From Owenia fusiformis (Eukaryota > Annelida > Polychaeta > Sabellida > Oweniidae), in assembly GCA_903813345.2 (NCBI GenBank), contig CAIIXF020000004.1, positions 11,680,196 to 11,744,195 on the forward strand: a DNA stretch of 64,000 nucleotides, given 5' to 3'. Below are positions 270-58,665 of the stretch, one piece after another (position 1 is the stretch's first letter; every line of letters begins with the position of its first letter). Under the pieces are notes generated by a model. The model was given only the letters and a program-made list of their open reading frames with translations, was not told the DNA's origin and searched no databases. Position numbers and translations under genes: made by a program.

Positions 270-3200
270 CTTGTGGTAATTGAGATACTCATCAGTAAGA
301 CTCCAAGGAGCATCAGTGACAACCTCATCTACATATCTACAATGTCTTAGTGCCTCGTATCTCTCTTTCTCATTCATTACTGTACGCCCTTTCCTGGCGT
401 GAGTCAGCTCATCATTACAAACTAAAAAAAATTAATCAAAAAAATATTTCATGTCATGCATTTCATACTGAAATCTACACAGGGTCAAGTAAGGTATAGA
501 TCTATTGTATATCAACTTCTATTGGGAATGAAGAAAACTGTTTCAGGGCCACATAAAAAATTACCTGTCGTCAAACAATATTGTCCGTAGCCAGGGGGAG
601 TGGGGTTTAGGGGATTCGAGCAATCCCCCCTAGCCAAAAATTCTTTTAAAATCATGCAGTTTTTCAACATTCTGGGCACCTTGCAAGTGATTTTGGCAAT
701 TTTTTCGGCCATAGTTGTCAAAAGTGTGACCCACCTGGAAATTTTTGAAAAGTGACCCCTCTCTTGGCAAAAGCTGGCTACGGGCCTGACAATGGTCACA
801 CTGAACATTCTATTTTTTCAGAGTTCTAAATAATTAAAGGTATATCGAGTTCTACAAGTACATGGCTCAGATTAAAATAAATGAGATTATCTGTTAACTC
901 GTTGCTGACCAACTCCGAGATATTTCATCTATGACTTCATAATCGTATCTGACCAACCCCGAGATATCTCGGGGTGTTGTCCAATAATTGTCACATAATC
1001 TATCCCAATTATCTTATCAAATATTGTTTTGGGTTACTAGGGGAACATGGTTGGGTGCCAGTCATCAGCAGAAAACGTCCAAAAATAGCTTTGGTCAGCA
1101 ATGAGTTAATTACCCCAGTGCTTTTTGAAATCACAATAATACAGTGTATGTTATTCACTGAGATGAGGTGCTTATCATTAAAAACAAAGCTTGAGTGTTT
1201 GACTTACCTCCAACAATGAGGTACACATTTGGGAAGACTGCCTTAGCTTGCATTAACTGTCTAGCATGCCCCGAATGGAACATGTCATATATACCATCAG
1301 CATAAACTCTCACAGAGCGACCCGCTGAAAGTGAACATATATATGTTTATATACACATTTAGGAAGACTGCTTTAGATTGCATTAACTGTCTAGCATGCC
1401 CTGAATGGAACATGTCATATATACCATCAGCATAAACTCTCACTGAGCGACCCGCTGGAAGTGAACATATATATGTTTATATACACATTTGGGAAGACTG
1501 CTTTAGATTGCATTAACTGTCTAGCATGCCCCGAATGGAACATGTCATATATACCATCAGCATAAACTCTCACAGAGCGACCCGCTGAAAGTGAACATAT
1601 ATATGTTATATACACATTTGGGAAGACTGCTTTAGATTGCATTAACTGTGTAGCATGCCCCGAATGGAACATGTCATATATACCATCAGCATAAACTCTC
1701 ACAGAGCGACCCGCTGAAAGTGAACATATAATACGTATATGTAAGCATCACTAATTATTCTTACTGAGCATTCCCATGAAAGTGGAAATTATGTACATAT
1801 CATAGTCTAGATACCAGCTGCATAAATTCTCACAGAGCGACCCACTGAAAGTGAACACATATGAAAATTATATACAATATAGTCTAGATACCATCTACAT
1901 ATATTCTCACCGAGCGACCCACTGAAAGTTAACATATACTTTCAGCAGGTTGCTCAGTGAGAATAAACATGTATGCAGTTGGTTTCTCGTATTTGTATAC
2001 AGCATCAGTATTTATTCTTAATGAGCATTTCCATGAAAGTGAAAATTATGAACATATCATATATACGATCAACATATATTCTAACTAAGAGCAACCTCCT
2101 GAAAGTATGAATTATAAACATATCATAGTCTCGATATATAATCTGCATATATTCTCACCGAGCGACCCACTGAAAGTGAACATATATGTTACAGCATCAC
2201 TATTTATTCTTACAGAGCATCCCGATAAAGTGAAAATTATGAACATATCATATATACGATCAACATTATATTCTTACTAAGAGCAACCTCCTGAAAGTAT
2301 AAATTATAAACATATCATAGTCTAGATACCAGCTACATATATTCTCACCGAGTGACCCACTGAAAGTGAACATATATATGTTACAGCATATTTATTTTTA
2401 CTGAGCATTCTCATGAAAGTATAAATTATAAACATATCATAGTCTAGATATATAATCTGCATATATTCTCAATGAGCAACCCACTGAAAATGAACATATA
2501 TATGTTACAGCATCACTATTTATTCTTACAGAGCGTCCTGTTGAAAGTGTACATTATGAACATACCATAGAGAATCACTGAAAGATGAACACATATTCAC
2601 CTCAATATAAATATTTGTTTTATTATTCACTGTTATAAACTCCACCAAGCAAAATAAGGAACAAGTCAAGTTCTACAGCTGGGCAATGTTCTCAATTTAA
2701 CAGTTCCTTCTTACTGACAGCATACCCTTGAGCAGGAATATACACCCTAAAATGTCAACACCTGCCATTTGTTACAGATGCCAAATGCTGACTGCCAAAC
2801 ACCAAACATCAAACAGAAACTGCCGAATGTCGAACACCATTCACAAAAAAGACACACCTAGTGGTGGTGACATAGTAAAACCGTTTCCTCTGTGAAAACC
2901 AAAACAATTTACCTTTGCCTGACTCTGCCATTTGTTTTGTGATGCGTATGCTGTAGTCCACAGAGTCCCTCTCTATTTTGGCAAGGGGGTCTGTTGCAAG
3001 GGGGGCAGGGGAGCAACATGTCTGAAACACAAACAATCCCATAAAAAGGCCATAGTTGTTTTATTTTATACAGTGTGCGGTTTGTTATGACATTGTGACG
3101 GTATGATCTGTTCAATGAAACCCAACCTCAAGTTACTATGACAAGCACTACAGTGCGAATTATATATATCAACAATCTTGGCCAAATTTCAGGATATCTA

Positions 3201-12200: not shown

Positions 12201-14043
12201 ATGTATTAAATTTGAAGCCATTTGTGACTGTCGTTTCATCCAGTCCACCAAACCAGGACTGGGCCCACAAAGAAGTATAAGGTAGAAAATTACTCATCGC
12301 TTCCAGACTATCGGCAAAAGTCTGGAACGCGACAATATTCTGGATTTTGAAGCCCTGTGATGGGAGGATGTAGAAGTCTAGTGAACTACATGTCTATACA
12401 TACGAGGGACAAATACTGTATATGAGATCAATCTAATATTATTGCACATCAACTTGGTGATATTGTTATCGATTCAGACTAAAGCTCAGAATTAATTAAT
12501 ATATGAAACATTCACTCTTTACATTTCATTTATGTGTTGATTGTAGTTATTTCTCTTACAGTGGTGGATATGTGAGGGACAGCCTCATAGGCGTAGCCAG
12601 GGGGGGGGGGTGCGATCGCTTGTTTATGCCACAATCACACCCCCCCAACTGAAAACCGAAATTTTTTGGCGATCACACCCCCCCTGACTGAAAGCTGGCT
12701 ACGCCCCTGAGCCTGGAGACCCCCATTTGGTGGGCCCCAAAGAAATTTCTGTGGTTGTGAAGAAAAAAAACATTGAAAGTTGCCATCCCTGAATTCTAAT
12801 AATTATGAACCTTTTTATCATTAAAGTTAAAGATGAGGATACAATGAAAACCTGGTAGTTACTAGGATCCAACAACAGGGTGGTAAAAACAGCAAACAAA
12901 TGACAATTTGAAAGATATGAGGGAAAACTAGGGTTTCCATTTGTTTACCACCCTATACCTCTTGATTGCCCTAAGCAATAACGCAGATGCGAGTAGGTAG
13001 TTACCAGTTTCGCCACCAGGTGGCTCGTTCGGGTCAGATAACATGGCGGGTATAGTAGAAAGTTCCCTTTAACTTAAATTACATCTGTTTTAGTGGTTCA
13101 ATTTTTGTATAACCCTTATGTATCTAATAGTTATGCAAATTAAAATATGTCCAGTAAAAGAAAATGTTATCTGTCCAATACAAGAAAAGATATTTCACTT
13201 TTTGTGATTTTGTAACATGGGGTCTATGAGGAATCAACCCGAGCTAGAAGTCACATTTTCAAAAAAAATTAGATTTTCAAAGTTGATAAACAATTTTCGA
13301 AACCATTTTTCTAGATGTACTTTTACATGTAGATTTCAAATATGACATCACTTTGGCTGAATTTTAAATATTTGATGACGTAAATCAAGATTATTTCTAT
13401 TCGCATCTAGTCTATTGAATCTATCCCATTGCTCTTGTGATTTAACAAGGTGATCAAGGTGATCACGATCATGCCCGTACTAGCCAGCTTTTGCCAAGGG
13501 GGGGGGCACTTTTGAAAAATTCAAGGGCGAGTTTACATTTGTCAACTTAAGGCAATTGTTCTTGTGATTCAACAAGGTGATCAAGGTGTTCAAAAAAAGG
13601 CCGGTAGCCAGCTTTTGCCAGGGGGGGGGGGTAACTTTTGAAAAAATTCCAGGGTGAGTTTACAGTTTTACTAGTTACAGTTTGCCCATAATCACTTAAA
13701 AAGTACTGCATGATTTTGAAAAAAATTTCATCCAAGGTGGGGGGGGGGTCCGGGGGGTTGGAATCCCCCTGGCTATGAGCCTGAGGATTTGACAAGATTC
13801 ATCATCATGCTCTATTCCAATTACCCCCCCCCCCTCAAATAGTAGATATGCAATTTCTGTTGATGTTCCTCCTTTAAGAGAGCTCACACTAGATCTATGC
13901 TTAAGCTGATGACTCGAAAAAAGCAGCTGAAGATATATAAATACTGTTGTTACCTGTCGTCTTTTAGCAGGAGTCCCGGAAGAAGTCCCCTCTTGTGCTC
14001 CGTCCTCATCACCGCTACTCCAACTCCTCTTTCTTGAAGACAT
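270..14043 (-). CDS. PCYT1: Choline-phosphate cytidylyltransferase, 5' half (four coding exons, gene runs off the left edge)
   Basis: This enzyme makes CDP-choline from CTP and phosphocholine, the rate-limiting step of the Kennedy pathway to phosphatidylcholine; it moves between nucleus or cytosol and membranes. Exons read on the minus strand: 13954-14043, 2913-3021, 1208-1324 and 270-421. Their phases join into 156 residues. Residues 1-30 are basic and Ser-rich, with RKR and KRR clusters like the nuclear signal of vertebrate CCT. The catalytic fold starts near residue 71 with [20 protein letters not shown], where HSGH (83-86) is the CTP-binding signature of cytidylyltransferases. Exon 4 continues through [16 protein letters not shown] and APWSLT. 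All introns are GT-AG. The rest of the catalytic domain, the amphipathic lipid-sensing helix and the Ser/Pro tail must lie left of base 1. A 12-codon N-terminal extension from an ATG at 14,079 is possible. Vertebrate-style A and B paralogues cannot be told apart here. Confidence 0.93.
580..788. mobile_element. Palindromic MITE, family D (CAGGCCCGTAGCC type)
   Basis: A 209-bp copy has a right end GGCTACGGGCCTG and a decayed left end TCCGTAGCCAGG. It is flanked by ACAAT on both sides (575-579 and 789-793), a 5-bp target duplication. The inside holds the family's GCAATCCCCCCTAGCCAAAAA and TCATGCAGTTTTT blocks. No protein is encoded. Confidence 0.8.
894..1109. mobile_element. 216-bp MITE with 19-bp terminal inverted repeats
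   Basis: Left end TTAACTCGTTGCTGACCAA and right end TTGGTCAGCAATGAGTTAA are inverted copies with one mismatch. Inside is a palindrome around CCCCGAGATATCTCGGGG (956-975). It sits in PCYT1 intron 3, about 100 bp downstream of the exon 3 donor. No coding potential. Confidence 0.8.
1208..1324 (-). CDS. PCYT1: PCYT1 exon 3, HSGH catalytic exon (authentic copy)
   Basis: This is the only copy of the exon with both splice sites: acceptor TTTCAG and donor GGAG|GTAAGT. It encodes the first strand-turn-helix of the nucleotidyltransferase fold and ends after YLIVG, the expected junction before the VC(N/S)DE segment of exon 4. It carries MQAKA, while the three tandem copies to its right carry MQSKA, so these copies are closer to each other than to this exon. 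Confidence 0.93.
1340..1713 (-). repeat. Three tandem partial copies of PCYT1 exon 3 (about 130-bp period)
   Basis: Reading on the minus strand, copies begin at 1713, 1584 and 1454, spaced 129 and 130 bp apart and 130 bp from the authentic exon start at 1324. Each keeps the acceptor (TTTCAG or close) and about 100 exon bases through FPNVY, then passes straight into the next intron tail; the exon's last bases and its donor are missing. The first two copies stay in frame with each other, but the 130-bp step then shifts the frame to a stop. They are therefore decoy acceptor units and not usable alternative exons. Confidence 0.9.
1735..2560 (-). repeat. Degraded satellite made of PCYT1 exon 3 acceptor sequence
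   Basis: At least eight further units repeat the first 15-20 exon bases plus the acceptor, seen on the plus strand as variants of CTCACCGAGCGACCCACTG followed by AAAGTGAACATATAT. They occur near 1830, 1909, 2157, 2346, 2468 and 2530, with more decayed ones between, and one reversed unit near 1939-1965. Spacer blocks with TATTTATTCTTAC and ATAAACATATCATAGTCTAG repeat with them. This is a continuation, older and more decayed, of the 130-bp exon array beside it. Confidence 0.75.
2752..2875 (-). mobile_element. Short family B element (TGTCACCACC type)
   Basis: On the minus strand it starts ATGTCACCACCAC and ends near TGTAACAAATGGCAGGTG then TTGACATTTT. The body has the GTTTGGTGTTTGG microsatellite-like stretch. 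It lacks the tandem units seen in the long copy at 32283-33812. It lies about 40 bp downstream of the PCYT1 exon 2 donor. Confidence 0.65.
2913..3021 (-). CDS. PCYT1: PCYT1 exon 2
   Basis: It codes for residues 31-66, ending in [10 protein letters not shown], between an acceptor GTTTCAG and a donor AAAG|GTAAAT. In the family this is the variable linker before the catalytic fold. The phases match exon 1 (0) and exon 3 (1). The reading [20 protein letters not shown] has no strong motif of its own; its position and phase are the main evidence. Confidence 0.85.
3022..4763. other. PCYT1 intron 1, proximal part: nothing recognised
   Basis: AT-rich intron sequence without exon, RNA or clear transposon ends. 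It has a run of about 19 G at 4048-4066 and a C-rich tract near 4261-4280. Confidence 0.5.
4764..6692. mobile_element. 1.9-kb foldback-type DNA element with about 40-bp terminal inverted repeats and G-rich tandem units
   Basis: The ends match as inverted repeats: AGAGCAGGGCTACTAGTTTC on the left (from 4776) and its complement on the right (about 6653-6673), extending out to ATATAGACC on both sides. Between them, a unit of a few hundred bases recurs about five times: a GAAAATTTTACAATTT block, then GGTGCTTTCTGGGCACTTTC, a G run of 8-20, CCAGAGGGGGAG, and GATGTCTGGGCACTTTAAAAG. There is no transposase, so it is non-autonomous. Confidence 0.75.
6795..7787 (-). mobile_element. Family A element, full length, minus orientation
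   Basis: On the minus strand it begins TTATTATCCCATCGAACGAAG, passes through an ACGG/ACGT microsatellite (7678-7742), then about four 120-150-bp units with GAGCGATTTTGTTCATATTT and GTCTAATGACA, and ends GTTCGATGGGATTCGCTACG then GCCGTTGTTCTGGTTT. CCCATCGAAC and GTTCGATGGG form subterminal inverted repeats. No coding potential. The plan fits HINE or pearl-like non-autonomous Helentron relatives of marine invertebrates; that link is an inference. Confidence 0.75.
7788..9360. other. PCYT1 intron 1: AT-rich with a short ATGCCAATGTTA minisatellite
   Basis: Between about 8230 and 8480 the words ATGCCAATGTTA and GTAAGTAAGC repeat irregularly. The rest shows no exon, RNA or transposon end that I can support. 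Confidence 0.5.
9410..9680 (+). mobile_element. Family F repeat, copy 1
   Basis: About 260 bp are shared with the interrupted copy at 10275-12372 and, inverted, with 39019-39272. Shared words are CTAAGCAGGTGTACAGAATC, ATGCGCCGATGACGTATACA, AAATGCTAACTGCTTATAGC and CCTGTGATCGGAGGATG. It has no ORF. The outer words TACAGAGTGACA (9373) and TGTCACCCTGTA (9826) are inverted and may mark a larger 470-bp element. Confidence 0.65.
10055..10262. mobile_element. Family D palindromic MITE, right end lost
   Basis: It starts CAGGCCCGTAGCCAGG and has the GCTAAAATCACTTGAGAAGT and TTGGCCAGGGGGGGG blocks, then ends in a C-rich tract where the matching right terminus should be. It abuts the family F copy. Confidence 0.65.
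10380..12334 (+). mobile_element. LTR-like insert (probable solo LTR, 1,955 bp) inside a family F repeat
   Basis: It begins TGTGGGAAAAT and ends CGCGACA, the TG...CA ends of long terminal repeats. ATAT flanks it on both sides (10376-10379 and 12335-12338). The uninterrupted family F copy at 9410 reads GAATATATTCTGG across the site, which confirms the insertion point and a 4-bp target duplication, as made by many Ty3/Gypsy integrases. Inside are a start-proximal hairpin, a 77-bp and a 122-bp tandem duplication, and a long purine-rich minisatellite. No gag or pol and no second LTR is present. Plus orientation is guessed from the AT-rich ATGTATTAAATTTG segment near the end. Confidence 0.65.
11455..12085. 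repeat. GAGCCAGAGGAGCC minisatellite
   Basis: About 630 bp are built from GAGCCAGAGGAGCC, GAGCCAGGCTAAAGAGCC and GAGCTGAACGAAGAGCC units, strongly purine-biased on the plus strand. It lies within the LTR-like insert. No frame is a plausible gene. Confidence 0.85.
12585..12710. mobile_element. Short palindromic G/C-tract MITE related to family D
   Basis: Left GGCGTAGCCAGGGGGG and right AAGCTGGCTACGCCCCTG are inverted. C and G homopolymers and a GCGATCGC-type centre lie between. Confidence 0.6.
13470..13788. mobile_element. Family D-related repeat, compound
   Basis: Two left-type ends (GTACTAGCCAGCTTTTGCCA near 13476 and GGTAGCCAGCTTTTGCCAGG near 13602) precede one right end CTGGCTATGAGCCTG (about 13770-13785). 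The nearby AAGGTGATCAAGGTG words repeat at 13446 and 13574, so this looks like a partial tandem duplication of one insertion. Confidence 0.55.
13954..14043 (-). CDS. PCYT1: PCYT1 first coding exon
   Basis: From ATG at 14043 it reads 30 residues, [15 protein letters not shown] to PAKRRQ, and stops at donor CAG|GTAACA. Basic clusters near both ends of the peptide match the nuclear-localisation role of the CCT N-terminus. A further in-frame ATG lies 12 codons upstream; I chose the inner one because the extension has no family resemblance, but this is not settled. Confidence 0.75.
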
Positions 14044-14099
14044 TTCTGTTTGGCTAATTTTTCTCCGTGGTTGTTTCAAGTGTGTCTTGTCTAAGTCTG

Positions 14100-15290: not shown

Positions 15291-15296
15291 ATCATA

Positions 15297-15507
15297 CAGG
15301 CCCGTAGCCAGGGGGGGGTTCGCAGGGTTCGGGCGAACCCCCCCCCCCCTGGCCAAAAATTCTTTCAAAATCATGCAGTTTTTGACCATTTTGAGCACTT
15401 CTCAAGTGATTTTAGCCTAATTTGGGCCAAAAATTGTCAAATGTGAACCCCCCCTGGAAATTTTTGAAAGTTGAACCCCCCCTTGGCAAATCCTGGCTAC
15501 GGGCCTG
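15297..15507. mobile_element. Family D palindromic MITE, intact copy
   Basis: It starts CAGGCCCGTAGCCAGG and ends CCTGGCTACGGGCCTG, perfect 16-bp inverted ends. TCATA is duplicated on both sides (15292-15296 and 15508-15512). This is the reference copy for the family in the window. Confidence 0.9.
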
Positions 15508-15512
15508 TCATA

Positions 15513-16539: not shown

Positions 16540-16554
16540 GCACCCTACTGAGCA

Positions 16555-17020
16555 TTAGAAAATTACATGGCACCCTGTTGAAAATCTGTTTGCGCCCTGC
16601 CTCAATGATAAAATATTAAGATATTGACAAAAGCAATAACTTTTAGAAACAATCTGGAAAAGTCAATGAAGGTTCATATAAACTCCCAATGCTGTTGCAT
16701 ACATTTTGAGATGAGTAATATAGTTGAGATTGTGAGCTCAAAGGGGCCAAGGGGGGGGGGGCGTTAATAAATATCTAGGCAGCTATAATAAGATTATGTG
16801 ATTAACATGTACACATGTTATTATTATCATAAGAGCATACTGTAAACCACTTCAATTATGCAATGTTTTCATTTTATGTTTAACTTGCATTGACCAAATA
16901 ATTAAAGTTGCTCAAAAGCATATATCTTCGCCTATCTATGTGAATCTTCATGACTTTTTCAGATTGTTTCTGAGGCAGGGTACAAACAGATTTTCAATGA
17001 GGTGGCATGTATCAGGTAAA
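16555..17020. mobile_element. Imperfect foldback element
   Basis: ATGGCACCCTGTTGAAAATC plus TGTTTGCGCCCTGCCTCA on the left (16573-16611) is inverted on the right as TGAGGCAGGGTACAAACAG then ATTTTCAATGAGGTGGCAT (16971-17009). A second inner inverted pair, AGAAACAATCTGGAAAAGTC, lies at 16645 and about 16970. No protein. A related GGTGCAGATGGATTTTCAGG piece is at 22660-22735 in POLA1 intron 3. Confidence 0.6.
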
Positions 17021-43400: not shown

Positions 43401-46400
43401 TATGTGATGTACTCATGATTGGTTAATATTGCACACATTCAAGTCTAATTATGTAAAAGTATTAATTTAAATGTTCCAAACATGTTAAAACTTTACCTTA
43501 TTTTCTATAGATGGCATCACACCAACTCAATGTTTCAAATAGACACAAAGATGGCAACACAAAAAGAAATATTATATGTCAATTGGAAAAAAACGTTTTA
43601 ATTCATTAATGTTACCGAGGAGAAAATATTGGCTATGAGCCTGGAAAAAATCTTAATTTTAAGATTTGATGACCTTGTAGAACAGATGAGATGAGATCAG
43701 ACCTTTGAAACATAGAATATGATTCTGTTTTGTTTACTTCATTAGATTCTATGCAAAACCTTTGGCTGCTCTTGTAACAAGTCGTGGAAGAGAAATCTTG
43801 CTTCAGACCAAAGACCTGGTAGAAAAGATGGGACTAGATGTCATATACGGAGACACAGATTCCATCATGATCAACACAAACTCTACTGATATTGAAATGG
43901 TTTTCAAACTTGGTAACAAGGTAAAAAATAGGATTATTGTCTGATTAGAATTCTATTCAGTCTTGTATTTTTCTTAATATTTTAAACTGTTTTATATCCC
44001 CACAAGAAGTGGTGACATTTTGTTATATAGTATCTGACTCTTTTATGGATTGTGTTTTCGGCTGTTGGTGTCTGTAATGAATGGCCAATAGTGACACTTT
44101 GCATGTTAATGCCTTGTCATTATTTTGTTTCATTCCAAAAGTTTTGGTTAAACAATACAATGAGTTGACCTCTTTGAGAGATATATCCAAATAAATGGAA
44201 ATTACAAAACAAAATGACTCCCTACCAACACTTTCAAAAATATTCAATCTTTTGTGAAACTTGATACAACATAGGATTTCTATTTCTCTGTAAGACATTG
44301 AACATTGAAAAAGTTATCATTTAGATTAAACTGCTGTTTAGCTTGACTAAATTGAACTTTTTTAGTCCTTCCCCAACAACGCCTCTTGTCATTAGTCAAA
44401 CTGATACATTTATATTTGATTAAGCCCCCAAATTCTTTCTATTACTCATATTTGTATTTCAGGCAATGACTCAAATTTTCATCCCTTGTATTTTGTTTAA
44501 TTTTTAGGTAAAGAGCGAAGTAAATAAATTATACAAACTGCTGGAGATTGATATAGATGGCGTCTTCAAATCAATGCTGCTTCTGAAAAAGAAAAAGTAC
44601 GCTGCACTATGCATGACAAAAGTCGGGAACGAATATGTCACAAACCAGGAGTTGAAAGGTTTGGACATTGTCCGTCGTGATTGGTGCCAGCTCGCAAAGC
44701 ATGCTGGTAATTATGTTGTCAGTCAGATTCTGTCTGGGGAAAACAAAGACATCATCTTGGAGAACATCCATGCAAAATTGACGGAAGTTGGGGAACAAGT
44801 GGCAGAAGGGAAGATTGACATGGAATTATTTTACATCACCAAGGTATGAATAAGTGTTCCCTCCCATTTTTTGGCTTACACAGTGGGACCGACTAGGTGT
44901 CTGTCCGTGGGTCCATTAGTCTGTCCGTTGGTCCCTCCATCTGTCAGACTGTCAACATTGTGTAACATGTTGTAGAAATATTACAATTTTTTATTTTCGT
45001 ACCACGTATTTTTTCATTCATTCTAAAATCAATTCTCAATTTATTGATCAGTCTTTGAGAAGGGAAATTTTAGAATATGTCAAAAAGATTTAGCTTTCCA
45101 AATCCTATATAGACTAACAAATAACAAATTGCAGGTGATGACATTAAACATATTAATGCCTTGTATTTTGTTGTAGGCACTAACAAAAAATCCTGAAGAC
45201 TACCCAGATAAGAAGAGTCTCCCTCATGTTCAGGTTGCAATGAGACTCAACTCAAAAGGCGGGAAAAAGTTACGTGGAGGTGACACCGTGTACTACGTCA
45301 TATGTGAGGTAAATGTTAAATGAAAATACATGGGATGTCAAGGGTGTCATTAACAGCAGGCAACTGGCGTTTTTAGAGACTTCAAGTCAATACCCAGACT
45401 CATTCCCAGACTCATCCTTTTAGAATATGCCAAAAAGATTTAGCTTTTGCCATTTAACATGTTCATATGTGAGGTAAGTGTTAAATGAAAATACATGGGA
45501 TGTCAAGGGTGTCATTAACAGCAGGCAACAGGCGATTTTCACCAGTTGTTTTCACAAAATATCCCGTTGTTTTTAGAGACTTTTCAACCTTTGCATGTTA
45601 AATTTATGATTTCTATTAAGGGTTCTATTAATTTTGCCTATTGTTTTCATTTATTTAGCATGTTGTGAGAAATTCTAGTGAACCCCTTGGATGTTTACAA
45701 CAGTGTTTCATGTCAGTGGTCTTCCCAGGATCTAATTAAATGGAGCTTAATCCTGTTGGTTCATATCACCCGCCCTGTTCAAAACATTCCCCCGCCCACT
45801 CATCACTGGGCCCCTGGGAAAAGTAACAAGAGCTCCCTAGTGGGCCAGGCCATACAAAATTGGGTGAATGTATAGTACCTTCATATGTTAGAAAAATATC
45901 AAGACATCCCCAGGCCATGCAAAATCGAACTTATATAACACCTACACCTTTATATTTTAGGATGGTAGCAACCAGGCTGCAACACAGAGGGCATATCACC
46001 CAGATGAACTAGCCAAATCTGAACATTTGAAAATAGGTAAGCAGCTTTTCCAGCTTCAAGAAAGTTATGTTGCCAGACTCTTTGGATCTTTTTAAATATA
46101 AAAGGGAATAAAAAATTCATCTACTTTTATTTTGATCACTGTAAATACACAAACTATAAAAGCAGCAGTTTTTTTGCTAGCTTTTTTCAAGTCATAATTG
46201 TCAGTTAAGGCATGTGAGTTCGATCATTTACATCCAGAGCATTAGAGTATCATTGTTGTGACAACGAACAGTCTTTCTCACTTGTTGAAAATTTAGTTTC
46301 CTTTGTATAATATTGTATTTTGTATTGTATAATATGTAATTGTTTGAGATGAATGCACATTTTAGATTTGTCTTACAATAATAAAAAAACATGTAACATA

Positions 46401-49400: not shown

Positions 49401-52400
49401 TTAGTGGCATTTACTTGTAGATGATATAAGTTTTACTTTATAAGTAAATATAAATGAACATGAACTCGACTTCCAATTTAAAAATATCAAGGGGTACCAA
49501 AATCATCCAATCTTACTGACATTACCTCTTTAGTAATACCTCTTTAGTATTGCCTCTTTCCCTTTCCCAATATCTCCCTAATAACTATTTTTTATTTTGT
49601 TTCTTTAAAGCACCCTGACCTTTAATTACTCATAGTATATATCATTAGCCTCTTATCAAATTGAGTTATTTGATTGCTTATAATTTATTGTATAAAGAGT
49701 TGCAATATTTGTTGCCACTTTATAAATCTGAAGCTAATCTAATAATATCCATTAATTAGCCCACGGGGCTGTAATTAAGTAGAGACTTCTTGAATTTGCC
49801 ATCTAATGACAAAGGATGTGTGATCCCATATTGCAAGGCAGGATTATAATTTGCTGACCAACCAATCATATTTTAGTATTTGAAATATGACAGTTTGTCT
49901 TTTTCCACCCAAAATACACTGAAAAGCAAACTAAACAAAAAATGTTATGAACACAAAAGTATATATTCCAAATTATATTAAAGTTAAACCGATATTTATT
50001 TATATAATACTATGAAGAAATGATGAAATAAGCATGATCTGATAAATATTTAAGTCAGGTAGGGGCTGATGGGATTGTTGCAGGTGTAGTGTTGTAATTA
50101 AGTGGAGGGAACTTGAATCTTGCTGTAATGAGCCTATAAATTAGAAGCCTCTTCAACAAATATTTAATGAGGGTCACTTTTGGAAATTCAAAATAGAGTG
50201 GAAAAGAGTGGAATCAGCATGGAATAAACTAATCAGACATGTGGATAATACTCTAAATTATATAGAAATGCAAGAAAATCAGGTACTTTATTCAAATTTT
50301 AGAGAGAAATTGAGTGAAATAAGCATGAGCAGACGGACAATTTAAGTGCAGGTGATTTTCAAGCAGCTGTTTGTGCCCCAGGCTTTGAAGGGCCACCAAG
50401 ATACAAATTGTAAAATAATTGATAATGATCTTGTTTTATATTTATTAAGTAGATTTAAAGAAAATACTAGAGGGACACTTTTAAATTAGAATAAGGTAGA
50501 AGGGGTCATAAAAAATAAGGTTTATGAGATCTTGACAACATATAGAGCCCCACATGAGAGATTAAGACGAAGAGCAAAACAGTCAGACCTGCTCGCCTTT
50601 TTATGTCCCCACCACATAGTGTGGGGCCATATTGTCGGCCTAGGCGCGTCCGTCTGTCTGTCCGTCTGTCTGTCCGTACGTCCGGCAGTTTTCTCCAAAA
50701 CCGCTACAGATATCACCTTCAAATTTTCAGGGATAACTTATGAGTGCATACAGATGTGGATGAAAAAAAATTAACTCGATACCTACTTCCTGTCGGCCAT
50801 TTTGAAGTCAAATGCTAAAATCCTTGTCTGCAAACTTTAAGAAAAACTGCTTCACAGTTGCTTTTAAAACTTTAACATCTTGTTCAGCTCACTTCATTCT
50901 AGATCTGATTAGGTTTTGGACCTGCTAGCTCAGTCATGTCAGCCATTTTGAATGTCTTAAGAAAAGTTAGCGCGCGATAATACTTTGTATCATATTGAAT
51001 GGTGTTTTTGAGTTTTCATACTTTAACTATTTAGTAGCTTTATAAATAATTTCAGATGTACTTTGCTGTAAAAGCCTACTTTATTGTTAACAGTAGTTAT
51101 ATGTGATAATTTTGTAAAAAGAAATCAGCAAAAACTCATAAGGACTTTTTTATTGTCGGCCATTTTGGATTTTTCGGTCCTAAAATCTTGTCTGTGAAGT
51201 CTTGTCTGCGCGTTTTCAGGTGAACCGTTTGGTGGATCAATTTCAAATTTTCAGGGATGATTCTTAGTATAAAAATCTAGATCTCATTAGTTTTTTGGCA
51301 TTCTGGGTAAATGTCAAGGCAGCCATTTTGGATTTTCCGTCCTAAAATCTTGTCTGTAAAGTCTTGTCTACTCGTTTTCAGGTGAACCGTTTTGTAGATC
51401 AATTTCAAATTTTCAGGAATGATTCTTAGTATGAAAATCTAGAACTGATTAGTTTTTTTGCATTCTGGGTAAATGTCAAGGCAGCCATTTTGGATTTTCC
51501 GTCTTAAAATCTTGCCTGTAAAGTCTTGTCTACGCGTTTTTAGGAGCACAGTTTGATAGATCAATTTCAAATTTTCAGGGATGATTCTTTGTATGAAAAT
51601 CTACATCTGATTACTTTTTTTGCATTCTGCGTAAATGTTAAGGCAGCCATTTTGGATTTTCTGTCCTAAAATCTTGTCTGTAAAGTCTTGTCTACCCGTT
51701 TTCAGGTGAACCGTTTGGTAGATCAATTTCATATTTTCAGGGATGATTCTTAGTATGAAAATCTACAAACAGATTAGTTTTTTGACATTCTGGGTAAATG
51801 TCAAGGCAGCCATTTTGGATTTTCCATCCTGAAATCTTGTCTGTAAAGTCTTGTTTACACGTTTTCTGGTTAACTGTGTGACGGATCAATTTCAAATTTT
51901 CAGGGGTGGTTCTTAGTATGAAAATCTAGAACTGACTAAATTTTTGGCATTCTGGGTAAATTTTAAGGTGGCCACTTTGGATTTTCCGTCCTCAAATTGT
52001 GTTGGTAAAGTCTTGTCTACTCATTTTCAGGATAACCATTTCACGGGATCACCACTTGGTGGGGACATTTTGTACACATTTGTGTTCTTGTTTCTCCTTA
52101 TCTTCTCTCCTTATATTTTCCCCTTGTCTTCTACAATTGAGTTTCTTTTTCATAGAGATAAGGTCATAGGAAGACATAGGCCAATTTTCAAGAAAGTAGA
52201 AAGTAGGAGCATTAAAATAACTCAAACTATTTCTTAAAGGATTGTTCTCAAAAAGTATTTTGATAAGAAAAGAGAGAGAAGTCAGCAAGAAATAAAATTG
52301 CATATAGGACATACTTAAAACGAACCCCATTCCCTTACATATAGTAAGTACCTTCGAAATAATATGCATGGACATTTCTTTCAAAGGGAATAATTCCCTT

Positions 52401-55400: not shown

Positions 55401-58400
55401 TTGCCCCCGGGTTCGATTCCCGGTTCAGACAAGTTTGTGTGTGCGTCATGTAATTCTGGGTGTTTGACTGAGTGGTTCATGACTCGTATAAAAGGCTGTG
55501 GTGTGTACCTGTATGTCTGTGTACCTGTGCACACAAAAGAACACAGGGCTCCTCCAAGGAGGGGTTTCTGGCTCTGTCTTCGAGTGTAAAATATGTAAAG
55601 TACGGAATACCAATGAGGCATTGCTCGCCAAATATGGCGGTAACCAAGATATAATAATAATAATTATTAGGGCCCAATAAGTGTCAATCTGGATTGCCTT
55701 CGAACCTCTCAAAAATTACAGATATTAAATTATATTAACTGCATCAATCTTTGGCCATAGCAAAGGATCTGCCTTCAAGCTATAGAATGTGTTCAAGGAA
55801 GTTACTCCAGCTTTTCTACAAAAGAGTGGCACAAATGCTCACAACAAACCTGGTTTTGTAAATTCAGACCATTCAGTCCCTAGTCTGTTTTACTGTTCTA
55901 TTATATGATTGAACCAGCAACCAGATAGATATCATACAGCACGAAGGCTAATGTTCTGTGACGGCCATACAGTCATTGAAAGAATACCACCAACAAAAGG
56001 AAGCCTTGCTCAGAAAATCTTAAGAACTTGCTAACCAAGGTGGACTTGTTTGGGGGCAACTGTACAATCTCCATCTAAAATTGGTATAGGAGTTCACAAC
56101 ATGGGGCTGGAAGTATGACATGTCTCTACTGGTGCCACTATTGACATCCCTTCCTAAAGCAGCCAAGGCATGCCAAGCATTTGTCAAGTATGGGTGCAAG
56201 GTGAAATGTAGTCCTGGGTGCTTACATTTCAGAAATGGATAAGTATCCACTGCTATGTGCAAATGCCATGGTCAATGCAAGTCATTAGACAAAAAAAGTA
56301 GCGGACATAAAATTGAGCCTTGTGGGACTCCAGTTTTCATACAAAAATGATCCAGTGACTTTAACTGCATATGAACATCTAATAGGTACTATTATTAGTC
56401 ATGTTTGATCAGTATACAACTATTTTGACTTATTAAATTACAAGTTTAGTCAATTTTTATGATTTTTCAATACATCGTGGCGGCCATCTTGAATTTTTGG
56501 TGAAAAAGTCAATGGATTGCTTGGTGCCACTTCAGGTTTTCAAAAGAATGGTATGAAGTTTTGAAATCCACCTTCAAATTGCTTCTATATATTTTTGAAA
56601 TATTTTCACCTAAATATTCCTGACTAATGATGTATTCATGGAAAGGATAGGACGTATCGATATGGTGAACTGAATTCAACAATGTTTTTCTCTTAAACCA
56701 ATTATTGAAAACATTCTGCAAAAACACGATCCTTTATTATGTCCCCACCACATAGTGTGGGGCCATATTGTCGGCCTAGGCGCGTCCGTCTGTCTGTCCG
56801 TCCGTCTGTCTGTCCGTCCGTCCGTCCGTCCGTCTGTCCGTCCGTCTGTCCGTACGTCCGGGAGTTTTCTCCAAAACCGCTACAGATATCACCTTCAAAT
56901 TTTCAGGGATAACTTATGAGTGCATACAGATGTGGATGAAAAAATATTAACTCGATACCTACTTCCTGTCGGCCATTTTGAAGTCAAATGCTAAAATCCT
57001 TGTCTGCAAACTTTAAGAAAAACGGCTTCACAGTTGCTTTTAAAACTTTAACATCTTCTCGCTCACTTCATTCTAGATCTGATTAGGTTTTGGACCTGTT
57101 AGCTCAGTCATGTCAGCCATTTTGAATGTCTTAAGAAAAGTTAGCGCACGATAATACTTTGTATCATATTGAATGGTGTTTTTGAGTTTTCATACTTTAA
57201 CTATTTAGTAGCTTTATAAATAATTTCAGATGTACTTTGTTGTAAAAGCCTATTTTATTGTTAACAGTAGTTATATGTGATAATTTTGTAAGAAGAAATC
57301 AGCAAAAACACATAATCACTTTTTTATTGTCGGCCATTTTGGATTTTTCCGTCCTAAAATCTTGTCTGTGAAGTCTTGTCTACGTGTTTTCAGGTGAACC
57401 GTTTGGTGGATCAATTTCAAATTTTCAGGGATGATTCTTAGTATAAAAATCTAGATCTGATTTGTTTTTTGGCATTCTGGGTAAATGTCAAGGCAGCCAT
57501 TTTGGATTTTCCGTCCTAAAATCTTGTCTGTAAAGTCTTGTCTACGCGTTTTCAGGTGAACCGTTTGGTAGATCAATTTCAAATTTTCAGAGATGATTCT
57601 TAGTATGAAAATGTAGAACTGATTAGTTTTTTGGCATTCTGGGTAAATGTCAAGGCAGCCATTTTGGATTTTCCGTCCTAAAATCTTGTCTGTAAAGTCT
57701 TGTCTATGCATTTCCAGGTGAACCGTTCTGTAGATCAATTTCAAATTTTTAGGGATGATTCTTAGTATGAAAATGTAGATCTGATTAGTTTTTTGGCATT
57801 CTGGATAAATGTCAAGGCAGCCATTTTGGATTTTCTGTCTTAAAATCTTGCCTGTAAAGTCTTGTCTACACGTTTTTAGGTGAACCGTTTGGTAGATCAA
57901 TTTCAAATTTTCAGGGATGATTCTTAGTGTGAAAATCTACATCTGATTAGTTTTTTGGCATTCTGTGTAAATGTCATGGCAGCCATTTTGGATTTTCTGT
58001 CCTAAAATCTTGTCTGTAAAGTCTTGTCTACGCGTTTTCAGGTGAACCATTTGGTAGATCAATGTCATATTTTCAGGGATGCTTCTTAGTATGAAAATCT
58101 AGGAACAGATTAGTTTTTTGACATTCTGGGTAAATGTCAAGGCAGCCATTTTGGATTTTCCATCCTAAAATCTTGTCTGTAAAGTCTCGTTTACATGTTT
58201 ACATGTTTTATGACCTCAAATTATCACCCATTGGTGGGGACATTTTGTACACATTTGTGTTCTTGTGTAATGTTGTCGGAAATTTAAGTTAATTTGAAAA
58301 GAAAAAAACCTGAGCATCCAATGTACTTGAATTAGTAATACTGTAATTCTAATTTTTAAGTAAACTTCTTTCAGAATGCAGCGAGCCTTAAATCAGGGAC

Positions 58401-58665
58401 CTGTCAATTTGAGCTTAATTGTAACTAAATTATGTATTAAATGGAAACCTGTCAAATTATGCTGAATGGGAACCTGTCAGTATGTACTGAGCGTTCATTA
58501 GAAATGTAATTCTAAATTTCTATTCCAGATGTTCCAAGTAAAGTTCTCTCAGACTGCAGCGAGCCTTATAGACAATTAAAACAGCATGTGGACAGAAAGC
58601 TCAGAGAGAGTGCCTACTCCCAAGTCAACCTGAATAAACTGTTTTTTGGACTGGGAGTCGTGTAA
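21361..58665 (+). CDS. POLA1: DNA polymerase alpha catalytic subunit (complete, 29 coding exons)
   Basis: POLA1 is the polymerase of the pol alpha-primase complex; it extends the primase RNA primer with about 20 deoxynucleotides to start leading strands and Okazaki fragments in the nucleus. The joined exons give 1,476 residues (human: about 1,462), with every phase consistent and a TAA at 58663-58665. Order: acidic N-terminal region with a DDWIVDDD block (about 75-100), the [11 protein letters not shown] motif (155-165), exonuclease-fold domain (from about 365), polymerase domain with DFNSLYPS (889-896), KLTANSMYG (972-980), YGDTDS (1022-1027) and KKKKY (1073-1077), then two four-Cys zinc sites (C1304, C1307, C1330, C1335; C1368, C1373, C1391, C1394) in the C-terminal domain that binds POLA2. 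Start chosen by family length and the E2F site just upstream. Introns are GT-AG, 76 bp to 8.6 kb. A polyadenylation signal AATAAA lies at 59300. Confidence 0.96.
22979..23200 (+). mobile_element. Diverged family A-like left end in POLA1 intron 4
   Basis: TATCCCAATGAACGAAGTTC followed by CTGTCTGTCCGGAAGATAAC and a TTTCTTCATATTAGGCG block follows the order of family A (end, microsatellite, first unit), but with many changes. No right end is seen. Confidence 0.5.
26452..26607 (-). mobile_element. Short family B element
   Basis: On the minus strand it starts TATGTCACCACCACAAGTGG, then ATATTGTTATGGTCTC, a GTTGGTGTTTGGCAGTTGG stretch, TGTAACAAATGGCAGGTG and TTTTGCATGTGAATGCCTTG. It is the whole family plan without the tandem units. 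It sits inside the 3.2-kb foldback. Confidence 0.75.
26993..27419. repeat. About 200-bp-arm hairpin nested in the intron 9 foldback
   Basis: Left (26993-27195) and right (27205-27419) are inverted copies with few changes: GTGCATGTTGGGAAATTTTC pairs with GAAAATTTCCCATCATGCAC, and TATGTGCCTAGAAAAGCC with its complement. The loop is only a few bases near AATTTTTCTGATT. It should form a very stable stem in RNA or single-stranded DNA. Confidence 0.88.
27489..27583. repeat. Perfect 22-bp inverted repeat pair
   Basis: TATGACCTGAATCGATTGCA (from about 27489) and its complement (to about 27583), separated by about 50 bases. It lies next to the 200-bp hairpin and may mark a further small foldback. Confidence 0.75.
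29035..31070 (+). CDS. POLA1: POLA1 exons 10-14: exonuclease-fold domain
   Basis: Exons: 29035-29151, 29553-29627, 29886-30182, 30405-30647, 30957-31070; residues 420-701. Landmarks are [43 protein letters not shown]-type [11 protein letters not shown] and [16 protein letters not shown]. As in other pol alphas, this domain keeps the fold of the proofreading exonuclease but lacks its metal-binding acids, so the enzyme has no proofreading. Partial copies of exons 11 and 13 occur just upstream of them (29466-29506, 30286-30362). Confidence 0.93.
29400..29506 (+). pseudogene. Fossil partial copies of the POLA1 exon 11 edge
   Basis: 29466-29506 reads TTGTTTTATTCAGAAAAGCA then CAAGGTAATATGCATTTGAG, matching acceptor plus first 30 bases of exon 11 (29542-29583) but with an in-frame TAA. 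A shorter remnant, CAAATCACTATGCATTTGAG, is at 29400-29420. Confidence 0.7.
30286..30362 (+). pseudogene. Fossil copy of the middle of POLA1 exon 13
   Basis: AACCAGCTCCAAAACTGGCA, then CACAACACTTATCAGTCATG and GACGGAATTTTCCCCTTA, matches exon 13 bases 30446-30523 at roughly three quarters identity, with an in-frame stop (TGATTTAG). It ends 42 bases before the true acceptor. Confidence 0.75.
31501..31580 (+). other. tRNA-like sequence (SINE head or tRNA relic)
   Basis: A-box-like TGGCCTTGTGG (31509-31519) and a perfect B box GGTTCGAATCC (31551-31561) sit at tRNA spacing, followed by a T10 run as a pol III stop (31571-31580). The acceptor strands ATCTCGG and ACTAACT do not pair, so I do not call a working tRNA. 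The loop would show AGC (Ala). Confidence 0.6.
32283..33812 (+). mobile_element. Family B element, long form with about nine tandem units
   Basis: It starts TTATGTCACCACCAAAAGTG; the first 52 bases are present twice in tandem. A GGTTGGCGGTTGGAGGTTGG stretch follows, then about nine units of 130-145 bp (CAAAATCATCTACATGTTCT, CTGACTTTAGATTTGACATT, CCTTCAATGACCTTCTCAAG, CAACTTGCTTCAAATTGAC), and the end AGGTGGTGACATTTTGTCAT then GTTAATGCCTTGTT. ATGTCACCACC and GGTGGTGACAT are subterminal inverted repeats. No protein is encoded. Confidence 0.8.
35120..35838 (+). mobile_element. 3' end of a non-LTR retrotransposon (5'-truncated)
   Basis: One frame runs from about 35129 to a stop at 35759-35761, broken by a single TGA at 35366. 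It encodes the C-terminal region seen after the reverse transcriptase of invertebrate non-LTR elements, including [20 protein letters not shown] and ECKLFEDER, a CxxC...HxxxxC putative zinc-binding module. The copy ends in an A-rich (AATAAAGAATAAAAGAAAAA) tail. ATAAAATACAACAT occurs on both sides (35106-35119 and 35839-35852), a 14-bp target duplication. The clade (CR1/L2 or Jockey-like) is not resolved. It is dead on arrival. Confidence 0.75.
35874..36752 (-). CDS. FkbM-type methyltransferase, type II membrane protein, single exon
   Basis: A 292-residue intact frame lies antisense in POLA1 intron 14. Residues about 10-29 ([18 protein letters not shown]) form one membrane anchor after a short N-terminus, so the enzyme domain probably faces the Golgi or ER lumen or the outside. 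Residues about 95-270 match the FkbM/Methyltransf_21 fold: [19 protein letters not shown] is the SAM-binding motif, followed by [18 protein letters not shown] and [17 protein letters not shown]. FkbM domains transfer methyl groups from SAM to oxygen; in animals a related membrane-anchored group includes Drosophila Star, an EGF-ligand trafficking protein. The substrate cannot be inferred. The absence of introns in an intron-rich genome suggests a retrocopy or an expanded single-exon family. The frame is intact, so it is probably functional, but I see no clear promoter or AATAAA. Confidence 0.88.
   Translation of the reverse strand: MKSYLNVFIMKMIIIAVLCFVVLFGTFKLGTNFPVLISYRNDGFDLNDLRAQMDIEILRKYWLIPPSVNIEPNMNDHDFSQVGQSKVVDKILNGKTNGIYIECGASDGHISNTEYFENYRNWIGLLVEPTPEFEGILKHDRNAWLLNACIGINQQIQQSIIQLGPMNWGWSGLQDAILPRNIKKAKENKTSKIIVQCFPFSTILKALNWTTIDYFSLDVEGAEEAILETIPFDDVHIRVFTIEFSGSGSKQEDAFKLDRMRQFFTQRNYTEWGVLGKDGSFPLGLDVVFHKL
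37133..37199. repeat. Two tandem copies of a CCGATT-type palindrome
   Basis: GCTAAGTCCGATTTAATCGG (from 37134) recurs 36 bp later as GCTAAGTCCGATTAAATCGG. Each holds a near-perfect CCGATT/AATCGG palindrome. Short foldback ends are one explanation; no larger element is visible. Confidence 0.7.
37339..38495 (+). mobile_element. Family A element, full length, plus orientation
   Basis: It starts TTATTATCCCATCGAACGAAG, has a TCCG/TACG microsatellite (37384-37462), then five or so units with GAGCGATTTTGTTCATATTT and CATGGCACAATGTCTAATGA, and ends GTTCGATGGGATTCGCTACG, CCGTTGTTCTGGTTT. It is about 750 bp downstream of the start of the nested FkbM gene, on the other strand. No protein. Confidence 0.82.
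38519..38665. mobile_element. Family G element, short copy
   Basis: It runs from AAAGTTTGAAAGTATG through TTTTTATCATTCATTTATTA to AAACTTATATGGGGCCTTTA, the same order as the long copy at 40250-41098 with the inside deleted. Confidence 0.55.
39019..39272 (-). mobile_element. Family F repeat, copy 3 (inverted)
   Basis: GCATCCTCC (39026-39034) and GGAGGATGC (39257-39265) are inverted ends; TTTTACT flanks both sides (39019-39025, 39266-39272). The inside is the reverse of the copy at 9410-9680, including TGTATACGTCATCGGCGCAT. Confidence 0.75.
39538..39697 (+). repeat. 45-bp direct repeat of the exon 15 acceptor tract around a family A fragment
   Basis: AAAAGGGTAAAAATGAAATA plus TGTGTTTTTTCTGTTACT (39538-39582) is repeated as 39652-39697, directly before exon 15. 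Between them is a family A right end, GTTCGATGGGATTTGCTACG (39610-39656). Confidence 0.8.
39700..45308 (+). CDS. POLA1: POLA1 exons 15-23: palm, fingers and thumb of the polymerase
   Basis: Exons: 39700-39887, 40097-40226, 41801-41914, 42253-42459, 42802-42897, 43110-43234, 43746-43920, 44508-44843, 45177-45308; residues 702-1202. Exon 18 has motif A ([10 protein letters not shown]; Asp889 is the first metal ligand). Exon 20 has motif B ([14 protein letters not shown]), which contacts incoming dNTP and template. Exon 21 has motif C (YGDTDS; Asp1024 and Asp1026). Exon 22 has KKKKY and [12 protein letters not shown], the DNA-backbone-binding thumb region. All catalytic residues are intact, so the gene should be functional. 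The exon 20 donor region is duplicated downstream, as is that of exon 23. Confidence 0.95.
40250..41098. mobile_element. Family G element, long copy in POLA1 intron 16
   Basis: Left CCCCGTCTAAAGTTTGAAA and right TTTAAACTTTATATGGGGCC are approximate inverted repeats. The inside is A/T homopolymer-rich with TTTTTGAAAAAA words and no ORF. Confidence 0.55.
41161..41242 (+). mobile_element. Family B right-end fragment
   Basis: It reads CATCTGTAACAAATGGCAGG, TGGTGACATTTAGCATG, TTGATGCCTTGTTT, matching the right third of family B. Confidence 0.65.
41517..41696. mobile_element. Small MITE with CAGGGGTTT ends
   Basis: It starts CAGGGGTTTACACTAGAATT and ends AATGAAACCCCTG. The inside has AACAGGCGATTTT and its complement as a hairpin. 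An inverted relative lies at 45345-45690 in intron 23. Confidence 0.65.
43185..43425 (+). repeat. 120-bp tandem duplication of the end of POLA1 exon 20 and its donor
   Basis: Unit 1 (43185-43304) holds the last 50 bases of exon 20, its donor and 70 bases of intron; unit 2 (43305-43425) repeats this with few changes. In unit 2 motif B reads NSMFG instead of NSMYG. It keeps a donor, but upstream has only GGTTAAG, without a good acceptor tract. Confidence 0.92.
43991..44119 (+). mobile_element. Short family B element
   Basis: It runs from TTATATCCCCACAAGAAGTG through GTTGGTGTCTGTAATGAATG to ACACTTTGCATGTTAATGCC. It has no tandem units. Confidence 0.65.
44876..45168 (+). mobile_element. Family B/C-like fragment ending at the exon 23 acceptor
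   Basis: It starts in a GTCTGTCCGTGGGTCC microsatellite (44900-44950) and ends CAGGTGATGACATTAAACAT then ATTAATGCCTTGT (45133-45165), the family B terminus, 12 bases before exon 23. Confidence 0.6.
45299..45690. repeat. Duplicated exon 23 donor region fused to a MITE
   Basis: CATATGTGAG, donor, then GTTAAATGAAAATACATGGG and GTCATTAACAGCAGGCAAC occur at 45299-45372 and again at 45464-45536. The second copy has a stronger donor (GTAAGT versus GTAAAT). From about 45345 a relative of the 41517 MITE follows, reversed, ending GTGAACCCCTTGG. Confidence 0.8.
45961..58665 (+). CDS. POLA1: POLA1 exons 24-29: C-terminal zinc-binding domain
   Basis: Exons: 45961-46036, 47127-47401, 47998-48129, 48797-48913, 52482-52569, 58529-58665; residues 1203-1476. 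Exon 25 reads [20 protein letters not shown], the conserved end of the polymerase module, then starts zinc site A (CTAC), completed by CSNKDC in exon 26. Exon 27 holds zinc site B (CEDTAC ... CTSC). Together these bind the B subunit (POLA2) and link to primase. Exons 28 and 29 are less conserved ([35 protein letters not shown]) but align in length and position with the human tail. Exon 29 is isolated by a 5.96-kb intron that holds a large palindrome and a family C element. Confidence 0.93.
46245..47050. repeat. Three tandem units of about 270 bp in POLA1 intron 24
   Basis: Each unit has ATATTGTATTTTGTATTGTA, AATCTGAATCTGGCAGTTGG (or close) and TATCACAGGGTCCCAAAA with CCCCACTAACAGGCAATGAC. The third is the most diverged. 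No coding content. Confidence 0.8.
47563..47866. mobile_element. MITE with GTAGATACACT ends in POLA1 intron 25
   Basis: Left CCGTAGATACACTTAATTTT and right AAATTTAGTGTATCTACAG are inverted. The inside is AT-rich without ORF. Confidence 0.6.
48758..48780 (+). pseudogene. Short fossil copy of exon 27 sequence
   Basis: AAGGTCACCCTGTGTGTACA, 17 bases before exon 27, matches AGAGGTCACCCTGTGTGCAC inside that exon (48862-48885). It is too short to judge alone, but fits the pattern at other exons. Confidence 0.55.
48914..50600. other. POLA1 intron 27, first part: no feature recognised
   Basis: AT-rich intron without clear element ends; TAATCTGAACACCTCTCGAT-like words near 49283 resemble 15150-15180 in the intergenic region, so an old repeat may be present. 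Confidence 0.4.
50601..52090 (+). mobile_element. Family C element, copy 1 (TGTCCCCACCA type)
   Basis: It starts TTATGTCCCCACCACATAGT with a GTGGGG hairpin, then a TCCGTCTG microsatellite (50646-50682), two different leader blocks, about six units of 150 bp (CGTTTTCAGGTGAACCGTTT, TTCAGGGATGATTCTTAGTA, GGCAGCCATTTTGGATTTTC), and ends CACTTGGTGGGGACATTTTG then TACACATTTGTGTTCTTG. TGTCCCCACCA and TGGTGGGGACA are subterminal inverted repeats. No protein. Confidence 0.85.
53640..54745 (-). pseudogene. Pseudogene of a multicopy invertebrate protein family, left arm copy
   Basis: Broken frames on the minus strand give, in order, [49 protein letters not shown] and [20 protein letters not shown]. The HEE(x)DTR motif and Cys-rich end recall a large uncharacterised family found in many copies in cnidarians, molluscs and echinoderms; that link is from memory. 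Stops and shifts make it non-functional. Confidence 0.65.
54785..56270 (+). pseudogene. Pseudogene of the same family, right arm copy
   Basis: It begins with an intact stretch of about 175 codons (54755-55285) with [37 protein letters not shown] and [20 protein letters not shown], then stops. After it come [16 protein letters not shown] (about 55320-55365), the SINE, and a decayed tail ending in Cys-rich [14 protein letters not shown] and CKCHGQCK (56190-56285). Same family as the left arm, opposite direction. Confidence 0.68.
55383..55671 (+). mobile_element. tRNA-derived SINE inserted in the right arm
   Basis: It has a B box, GGGTTCGATTCCCGG (55410-55424), near its start, a body with a GTACCTGTATGTCTGTGTAC tract, and an ATAATAATAATAATTATT tail. 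The matching site in the left arm lacks it. The tRNA 5' part with the A box is missing or decayed. Confidence 0.7.
56737..58266 (+). mobile_element. Family C element, copy 2
   Basis: It has the same start, leader, units and end as copy 1 (50601-52090), with a longer TCCG/TCTG microsatellite (56783-56858). Leader sequences are nearly identical, so one of the two moved recently, or one was copied from the other. The tandem units leave a periodic open frame on the minus strand (57451-57906), which is not a gene. Confidence 0.85.
58346..58412 (+). pseudogene. Collapsed copy of POLA1 exon 29
   Basis: It joins AAGTAAACTTCTTTCAGAAT and GCAGCGAGCCTTA (exon 29 start, 58541-58573) directly to AAATCAGGGACCTGTCAATT (sequence after the stop codon, 58664-58684), lacking about 90 bases between. 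It lies 117 bases before the true exon. Confidence 0.78.

Follow-up and report, generated by a model that had tools for sequence, protein, structure and literature searches.

The genes PCYT1 and POLA1 lie head to head in the annelid Owenia fusiformis, and an earlier note on this stretch of DNA had drawn attention to the same arrangement of PCYT1B and POLA1 in human, suggesting that the pairing either predates the split of vertebrates from this lineage or arose twice. The locus therefore raises two questions. Is the arrangement inherited from a common ancestor, and, if so, what has kept the genes together? In order to address them we have considered the gene models themselves, the sequence between the two start codons and the neighbors of the pair on both sides.

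Materials and Methods

The window is a stretch of 64,000 nucleotides of the 498 Mb Owenia fusiformis genome (contig CAIIXF020000004.1, referred to as C4, positions 11,680,196-11,744,195). It was examined together with 130 kb of flanking sequence, 194 kb in all. Forkhead domains (38 match rows) are distributed over nine contigs of the genome, C1, C3-C6 and C8-C11, and are closely grouped on C8 and C10; for Owenia fusiformis, PMC9539403 gives Fox genes on nine of 12 chromosomes, with tandem foxQ2 genes on two of them, in a chromosome numbering that differs from that of the contigs. Coordinates are those of the window, with the numbering continued past both of its ends, negative values lying to the left. 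Spliced alignments of POLA1 and PCYT1 were computed with an aligner that permits just GT/GC-AG introns, so that splice sites in these models are canonical by construction. Splice matrices were built from 27 POLA1 and 4 PCYT1 exons, providing 31 donors and 29 acceptors. Repeats were measured as local self-similarity inside the 194 kb alone, a measure that is biased to tandem repeats, and CpG observed/expected ratios (o/e) were computed with these local repeats masked. For chance expectations the gene number was set at ~27,000 in Owenia fusiformis and at 20,000 in human.

Results

The PCYT1 and POLA1 genes. PCYT1 occupies the minus strand and extends leftward past the window edge to about -2,050; its 3′ end was not located. 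The features of the gene are as follows.

13,954-14,182, minus strand: first coding exon, with 5′ UTR from the strong acceptor at 14,182, ATG at 14,043-14,041 and donor after 13,954
2,914-3,021, minus strand: second coding exon from the spliced model, with the acceptor at 3,021 picked by eye
1,208-1,324, minus strand: catalytic exon with the HSGH motif, a full copy with acceptor and donor
1,222-1,730, minus strand: tandem array with a 130-bp period, 3.9 copies and 96% matches
270-421, minus strand: catalytic exon VCNDELTH...YHK from the spliced model
-176 to -397, -875 to -1,042 and -1,916 to -2,029, minus strand: exons left of the window from the spliced model

The best solved match to the encoded protein, in which the second coding exon contributes 36 letters, is choline-phosphate cytidylyltransferase A, at 350 bits. 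Eight of the ten matches of a 220-residue PCYT1 query to the genome fall here; the other two, both partial, are located at C7:9284183-9284427 (minus strand), where they cover query residues 137-217 and leave the catalytic start uncovered, and are perhaps a gene fragment. Model exons at 14,528 (leading), 4,897 and 3,650 (both tiny) and -2,476 (last) looked spurious and were dropped. Within the tandem array three partial copies, in which the acceptor and the 5′ part are kept and no donor was seen, lie upstream of the full HSGH exon. A second, partial copy of a PCYT1 exon, 66% identical, is found beside the original at -820 to -644, and farther to the left two long open frames (-29,850 to -22,838) resemble, by eye, a Ty3-type LTR element.

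POLA1 was modeled on the opposite strand by spliced alignment to the human protein.

21,361-58,665, plus strand: POLA1, DNA polymerase alpha catalytic subunit, ~30 exons, with ATG at 21,361 and stop codon at 58,663-58,665

The model is colinear and without stops over 32 exon rows, three or four of which, tiny or terminal, are uncertain; one tiny row and the last rows were dropped as spurious-looking. When the last 100 residues are removed, the model matches polymerase alpha chains with 1,594 bits as compared to 206 for the best chain named as polymerase delta, and a 267-residue POLA1 query has all four of its genome matches at this locus. At 43,185-43,426 (plus strand; 120 bp, two copies, 95%) the exon carrying the KLTANSMYG motif has its 3′ part and donor tandemly duplicated, and one 162-bp satellite is found in two separate introns, at 51,159-52,031 and 57,333-58,194. 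A single-exon open frame without stops that encodes an FkbM-type methyltransferase (PF05050) is nested in an intron on the minus strand (35,874-36,812); it has 15 matches in the genome, itself included, and the best of the others, on C6, is 69% identical.

As had been claimed from the letters of the window, PCYT1 and POLA1 are divergent and adjacent, with 7,318 bp from ATG to ATG in the spliced models. None of the 20 listed open reading frames of at least 60 amino acids in 14.2-21.3 kb matches a Pfam family above cut-off, a DUF3963 match between the two genes (E 0.0047; 17.3 bits, the cut-off being 25) having been dismissed, and an Rfam scan of the window returned no family at gathering score. 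The boundaries proposed earlier hold on the right, the end of POLA1 included, and fall short on the left, where PCYT1 runs on beyond the window.

ARX, the third gene of the block. A whole-genome homeodomain search (139 matches) places a match ~5.4 kb past the right end of the window. The corresponding gene, ARX, is on the minus strand at 64,857-69,850 (L004:857-5850), just outside the window and tail to tail with POLA1; its 5′ end was not found. Two features connect it with the window.

58,666-64,000, continuing to 64,853, no strand: POLA1-ARX gap, with the two stop codons 6.2 kb apart
60,001-64,000, continuing to 90,000, no strand: left edge of a CpG-preserved, repeat-poor domain, with CpG o/e of 0.79 and 0.78 in 2.5-kb bins

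Reading the listed open reading frames alone, we recognized no gene in the gap. Three exons encode the ARX homeodomain: a first one whose end is at 69,375, a middle one comprising 46 bp (L004:3,403-3,448) and a last one starting at 65,417. They supply 30 protein letters, then EELAMRIDLTEARVQ and then VWFQNRRAKWRKKEK; a homeobox split by a 46-bp middle exon is the layout of human ARX as well. A C-terminal OAR motif, above the Pfam cut-off, reads from 64,943 down. Over a homeodomain region of 64 residues the protein agrees with human ARX at 62 positions, with fly aristaless at 56 and with ALX4 at 53. A whole-genome homeodomain search with 79 matches has a C7 gene at the top (86% over 51 residues) and places the C4 gene ninth, because an intron splits the homeobox of the latter at residue 31; compared by letters to human ARX the C7 homeodomain reaches 43/50 and the C4 gene 62/64, and the former was rejected as ARX. 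In this comparison six other PRD-class genes of the genome are less ARX-like than the C4 gene, and the nearest of the six is the C7 gene, a second, more divergent ARX-like homeodomain at C7:17910178-17910330 (minus strand). No N-terminal octapeptide was found in one regular-expression scan of the minus strand of the 40 kb of L004-L007, the 5′ exons of ARX being unlocated.

To the right of ARX there is a protein kinase and then an NKAP C-terminal domain (118,880-119,122, minus strand, L009), which are not human Xp neighbors; the kinase resembles STK24/25/26. An arginine-serine-rich open reading frame at 123,212-123,868 may be the other end of NKAP.

CpG o/e amounts to 0.41 in the PCYT1 body and to 0.50 and 0.45 in the two halves of POLA1, and local repeats make up 0.46 of the 3′ part of POLA1 (39.7-58.7 kb), where CpG o/e is 0.45. 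The ratio rises to 0.66 in the POLA1-ARX gap and to 1.00 over ARX, is still 0.98 and then 0.84 over the two 10-kb stretches that follow, and drops to 0.41 beyond 90 kb, while the repeat fraction is 0.03 over ARX and 0.09 upstream. ARX has its own CpG-preserved domain of 25-30 kb that begins just past POLA1 and, at 60,001-90,000, covers the gene and ~20 kb upstream of it. High ratios are not confined to the three-gene block, as can be seen from the flanks (far left 0.78, left 0.53, 104.5-124 kb 0.51, 124-134 kb 0.73).

A candidate promoter between PCYT1 and POLA1. The region between the two start codons contains one sole CpG-rich block, located at the POLA1 end. The features of this end are as follows.

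19,751-21,500, no strand: CpG-preserved block, candidate bidirectional promoter, CpG o/e 1.04
21,324-21,335, plus strand: E2F-type site TTTTCGCGCCAA, 25 bp before the POLA1 ATG
21,066-21,300, minus strand: predicted non-coding PCYT1 exon 1, with donor CAG/GTATGT after 21,066 and a 5′ end that is not defined

The CpG o/e of the block compares with 0.30 in 14,183-19,750; in the far left flank, which is rich in repeats, single 500-bp windows commonly reach ratios of at least 1 as well. Inside the block are a CACGTG box at 20,290 (one of three occurrences in the window) and the CRE-type sequence TGACGTCA at 20,316 (one of four). The E2F-type site contains, starting 36 bp before the POLA1 ATG, the sole exact TTTCGCGC on either strand of the 194 kb; the looser E2F consensus TTTSSCGC occurs 12 times in the same 194 kb.

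Additional information is provided by the splice signals. Among the 372 GT sites on the minus strand between 14.3 and 21.36 kb the donor at 21,066 ranks first, with a score of 10.39 as compared to a mean of 8.2 for the sites used, and it is positioned 295 bp from the POLA1 ATG, the coding starts of the two genes being 7.3 kb apart. Its presumed partner at 14,182, 139 bp before the PCYT1 ATG, scores 10.24 (mean of the 29 matrix acceptors 9.54), followed by 9.59 at 14,393 and 8.65 at 14,658 for the next-best acceptors nearby. Donors as strong as that at 21,066 occur at 0.05-0.09 per kb per strand, corresponding to a chance of ~2%, in a test chosen post hoc, of finding one less than 300 bp from the POLA1 ATG; equally strong acceptors occur at 0.23-0.27 per kb.

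Together, the CpG block, the E2F-type motif and the splice signals make a shared E2F-type promoter the likelier layout; to judge from the sequence, one CpG-rich promoter at 19.75-21.5 kb probably serves both PCYT1 and POLA1. On the assumption that CpG loss is a trace of germline methylation, the ratios along the locus would delineate one promoter block for the divergent pair and one broad domain for ARX.

Discussion

Is the block inherited? From left to right the order PCYT1 (minus), POLA1 (plus), ARX (minus), spanning ~51 kb between the ATG of PCYT1 and the stop codon of ARX, is the order of the human X chromosome. The three genes are immediate neighbors and are orthologues of three human genes, not tandem duplicates of one another. 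On the human side, at Xp22, PCYT1B is on the minus strand. The remaining information comes from passages of two papers, which place the terminal exon of POLA1 next to ARX and imply, through a table of duplications, that PCYT1B is on the other side of POLA1 (PMC8955779), and which list ARX, POLA1 and PCYT1B together by enhancer hs123 (PMC3826498). To the extent of these passages the orthology groups and their order are the same in the two species, POLA1 and ARX are tail to tail in both, and the 5′ end of POLA1 points towards PCYT1B; the human block extends over several hundred kb, judging from the duplication sizes in PMC8955779, as compared to ~51 kb in Owenia fusiformis. PDK3, a neighbor in the human block, is absent beside PCYT1 in Owenia fusiformis, and a wider block that includes PDK was rejected on the Owenia side, where the six PDK-domain matches are all on C1 and C12.

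Two explanations would remove the need for common ancestry. The pair could be the product of an incorrect assembly, and repeats are indeed present in the PCYT1 body and in the POLA1 introns; however, an assembly join at 14-21 kb, a possibility raised in the earlier note, left no sign when it was checked, there is no N in the window or in its 130 kb of flanks, local repeats take up little (0.13) of the interval of 14.2-21.4 kb, and it is hard to see how an erroneous join would have reproduced the order found in human. An artefact is, in our view, extremely improbable, and we attach equally little weight to the notion that the pair was assembled twice. The latter would be of some concern for a lone pair, since ~0.4 shared oriented pairs are expected by chance over the two whole genomes, but with ARX included the expectation drops to ~7e-6 oriented triplets, and the order and all three orientations match. 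Because ARX completes the triplet, chance is practically excluded and common descent is by far the best reading. With ARX in the human position and orientation, the suggestion that the pairing predates the vertebrate split is strongly supported, and we infer with high confidence that the PCYT1-POLA1-ARX block goes back to the last ancestor that protostomes and deuterostomes had in common. In flies and nematodes the linkage appears to be lost, a point against this reading.

What has kept the genes together? We consider it likely that the ancestral three-gene block has been kept as two regulatory units placed back to back. In the first of these units the promoter at 19.75-21.5 kb would fire rightward into POLA1 and leftward into the predicted non-coding exon 1 of PCYT1, whose splicing to the coding exon at 14.18 kb would bridge 6.9 kb; breaks inside this unit would harm the promoter of an essential gene. 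The second unit would be the ARX domain, beginning just past POLA1. For the layout in Owenia, the sequence signals incline us, by a little more than an even chance, to a two-way promoter bearing an E2F site that would raise phosphatidylcholine synthesis and replication priming together at S phase. By analogy with mammals, the link between POLA1 and ARX would probably be kept because ARX regulatory elements are situated in or beside the 3′ end of POLA1, an account that we put forward tentatively; the 3′ introns of POLA1, repeat-rich (0.46) and CpG-poor (0.45), argue against a dense population of ARX enhancers there. It is doubtful that the complete regulatory triplet, an E2F divergent promoter together with a POLA1 3′ end that anchors the ARX domain, predates the protostome-deuterostome split. 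Were it to do so, the ultraconserved ARX enhancers of mammals would sit in a domain layout that was already in place in the bilaterian ancestor.

A shared S-phase regulatory region had been proposed in the earlier note as the reason for the retention of the pair. The CpG block, the sole TTTCGCGC and the splice signals speak for such a region in Owenia fusiformis, where a shared S-phase promoter is a plausible prediction. A shared promoter is ruled out as what both lineages have kept, because the human promoters of PCYT1B and POLA1 are ~20 kb apart, as opposed to what is probably one block in Owenia fusiformis. The proposal also overlooked a rival in which it is ARX that holds the block, instead of cell-cycle coupling. 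It should also be kept in mind that the S-phase control known in mammals concerns Pcyt1a, the copy unlinked to POLA1. Co-regulation of PCYT1 and POLA1 is biologically sensible, given that Sp1 and E2F1 activate the Pcyt1a gene of mammals during S phase, according to passages and reference titles of PMC10411742; the likeness to this control is the E2F-type site in the candidate promoter here. Repression of Pcyt1a by an Sp1/E2F-retinoblastoma complex in quiescent cells is described in PMC4232400; the same paper found Pcyt1 levels to be similar in quiescent liver of E2F2-mutant and normal animals, which counts against coupling.

The main rival to the shared S-phase promoter is a genomic regulatory block in which ARX is the constrained target, its enhancers reside in the introns and flanks of POLA1, and POLA1 and PCYT1 are functionally unlinked bystanders. 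ARX, a developmental regulator, sits exactly where this model needs one; passages of PMC8955779 place all but one of the annotated ultraconserved ARX brain enhancers of mammals downstream of ARX, in the stretch that separates it from POLA1, and microsyntenic units of such a type have been described across animals (PMC5429095, in part). However, the CpG-preserved, repeat-poor domain extends over ARX and the region upstream of it and leaves out both POLA1 and PCYT1, and a regulatory block alone leaves unexplained the retention of PCYT1, ~50 kb off beyond POLA1. We regard the bystander model as a serious contender, if somewhat short of an even chance. It and the shared promoter are not mutually exclusive, as each could hold for one link of the chain. 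It is also conceivable, and in our estimation rather unlikely, that no selection is involved and that a slowly rearranging genome has simply kept some old neighbors. Owenia fusiformis is called slow evolving, and bilaterian chromosome linkage is overall conserved in it, in the passages of PMC9539403; macrosynteny does not preserve gene order, however, and the same passages report that ancestral Fox microsynteny has been lost in this species. Neutral retention would, in addition, require as a second coincidence that the block survived the vertebrate genome duplications on the human side. An ancestral block kept as two regulatory units is thus the reading that we retain.

Comparison with Known Systems

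Conserved ancestral microsynteny is an established kind of organization that is already known, and the main catalogue of conserved ancestral pairs is reportedly that of Irimia et al. 2012, Genome Res. The locus described here resembles those pairs in that unrelated neighbors are kept across animal phyla, and may differ from them in combining, in one triplet, two types of microsynteny. In one type neighboring genes have cis elements in common; in the other a developmental regulator lies beside a gene to which it is not related. No paper describing PCYT1-POLA1-ARX in an invertebrate was found in the literature searches, and the list of Irimia et al. may include the pair. Both types of microsynteny are described in passages of PMC5429095. 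POLA and PCYT genes are absent from the main texts of PMC8851819, PMC10719294 and PMC2688929, and POLA1, PCYT1 and ARX from that of PMC13317027.

The presence of the triplet in a protostome implies that the neighborhood is far older than vertebrates, and points to PCYT1B as the one, of the two PCYT1 copies of vertebrates, that retained the ancestral position. ARX is a major human brain-disease gene with enhancers between it and POLA1, and Owenia fusiformis offers a compact block, less than 100 kb with the CpG domain included, that lends itself to tests of ARX regulation and of a coupling of membrane synthesis to S phase. The likeness to the mammalian locus of ultraconserved ARX enhancers, as described in passages of PMC8955779, is one of gene layout: in both cases the 3′ side of ARX faces POLA1, and, unlike in the mammalian enhancer locus, the CpG and repeat profile indicative of a regulatory domain is found here mostly over and upstream of ARX.
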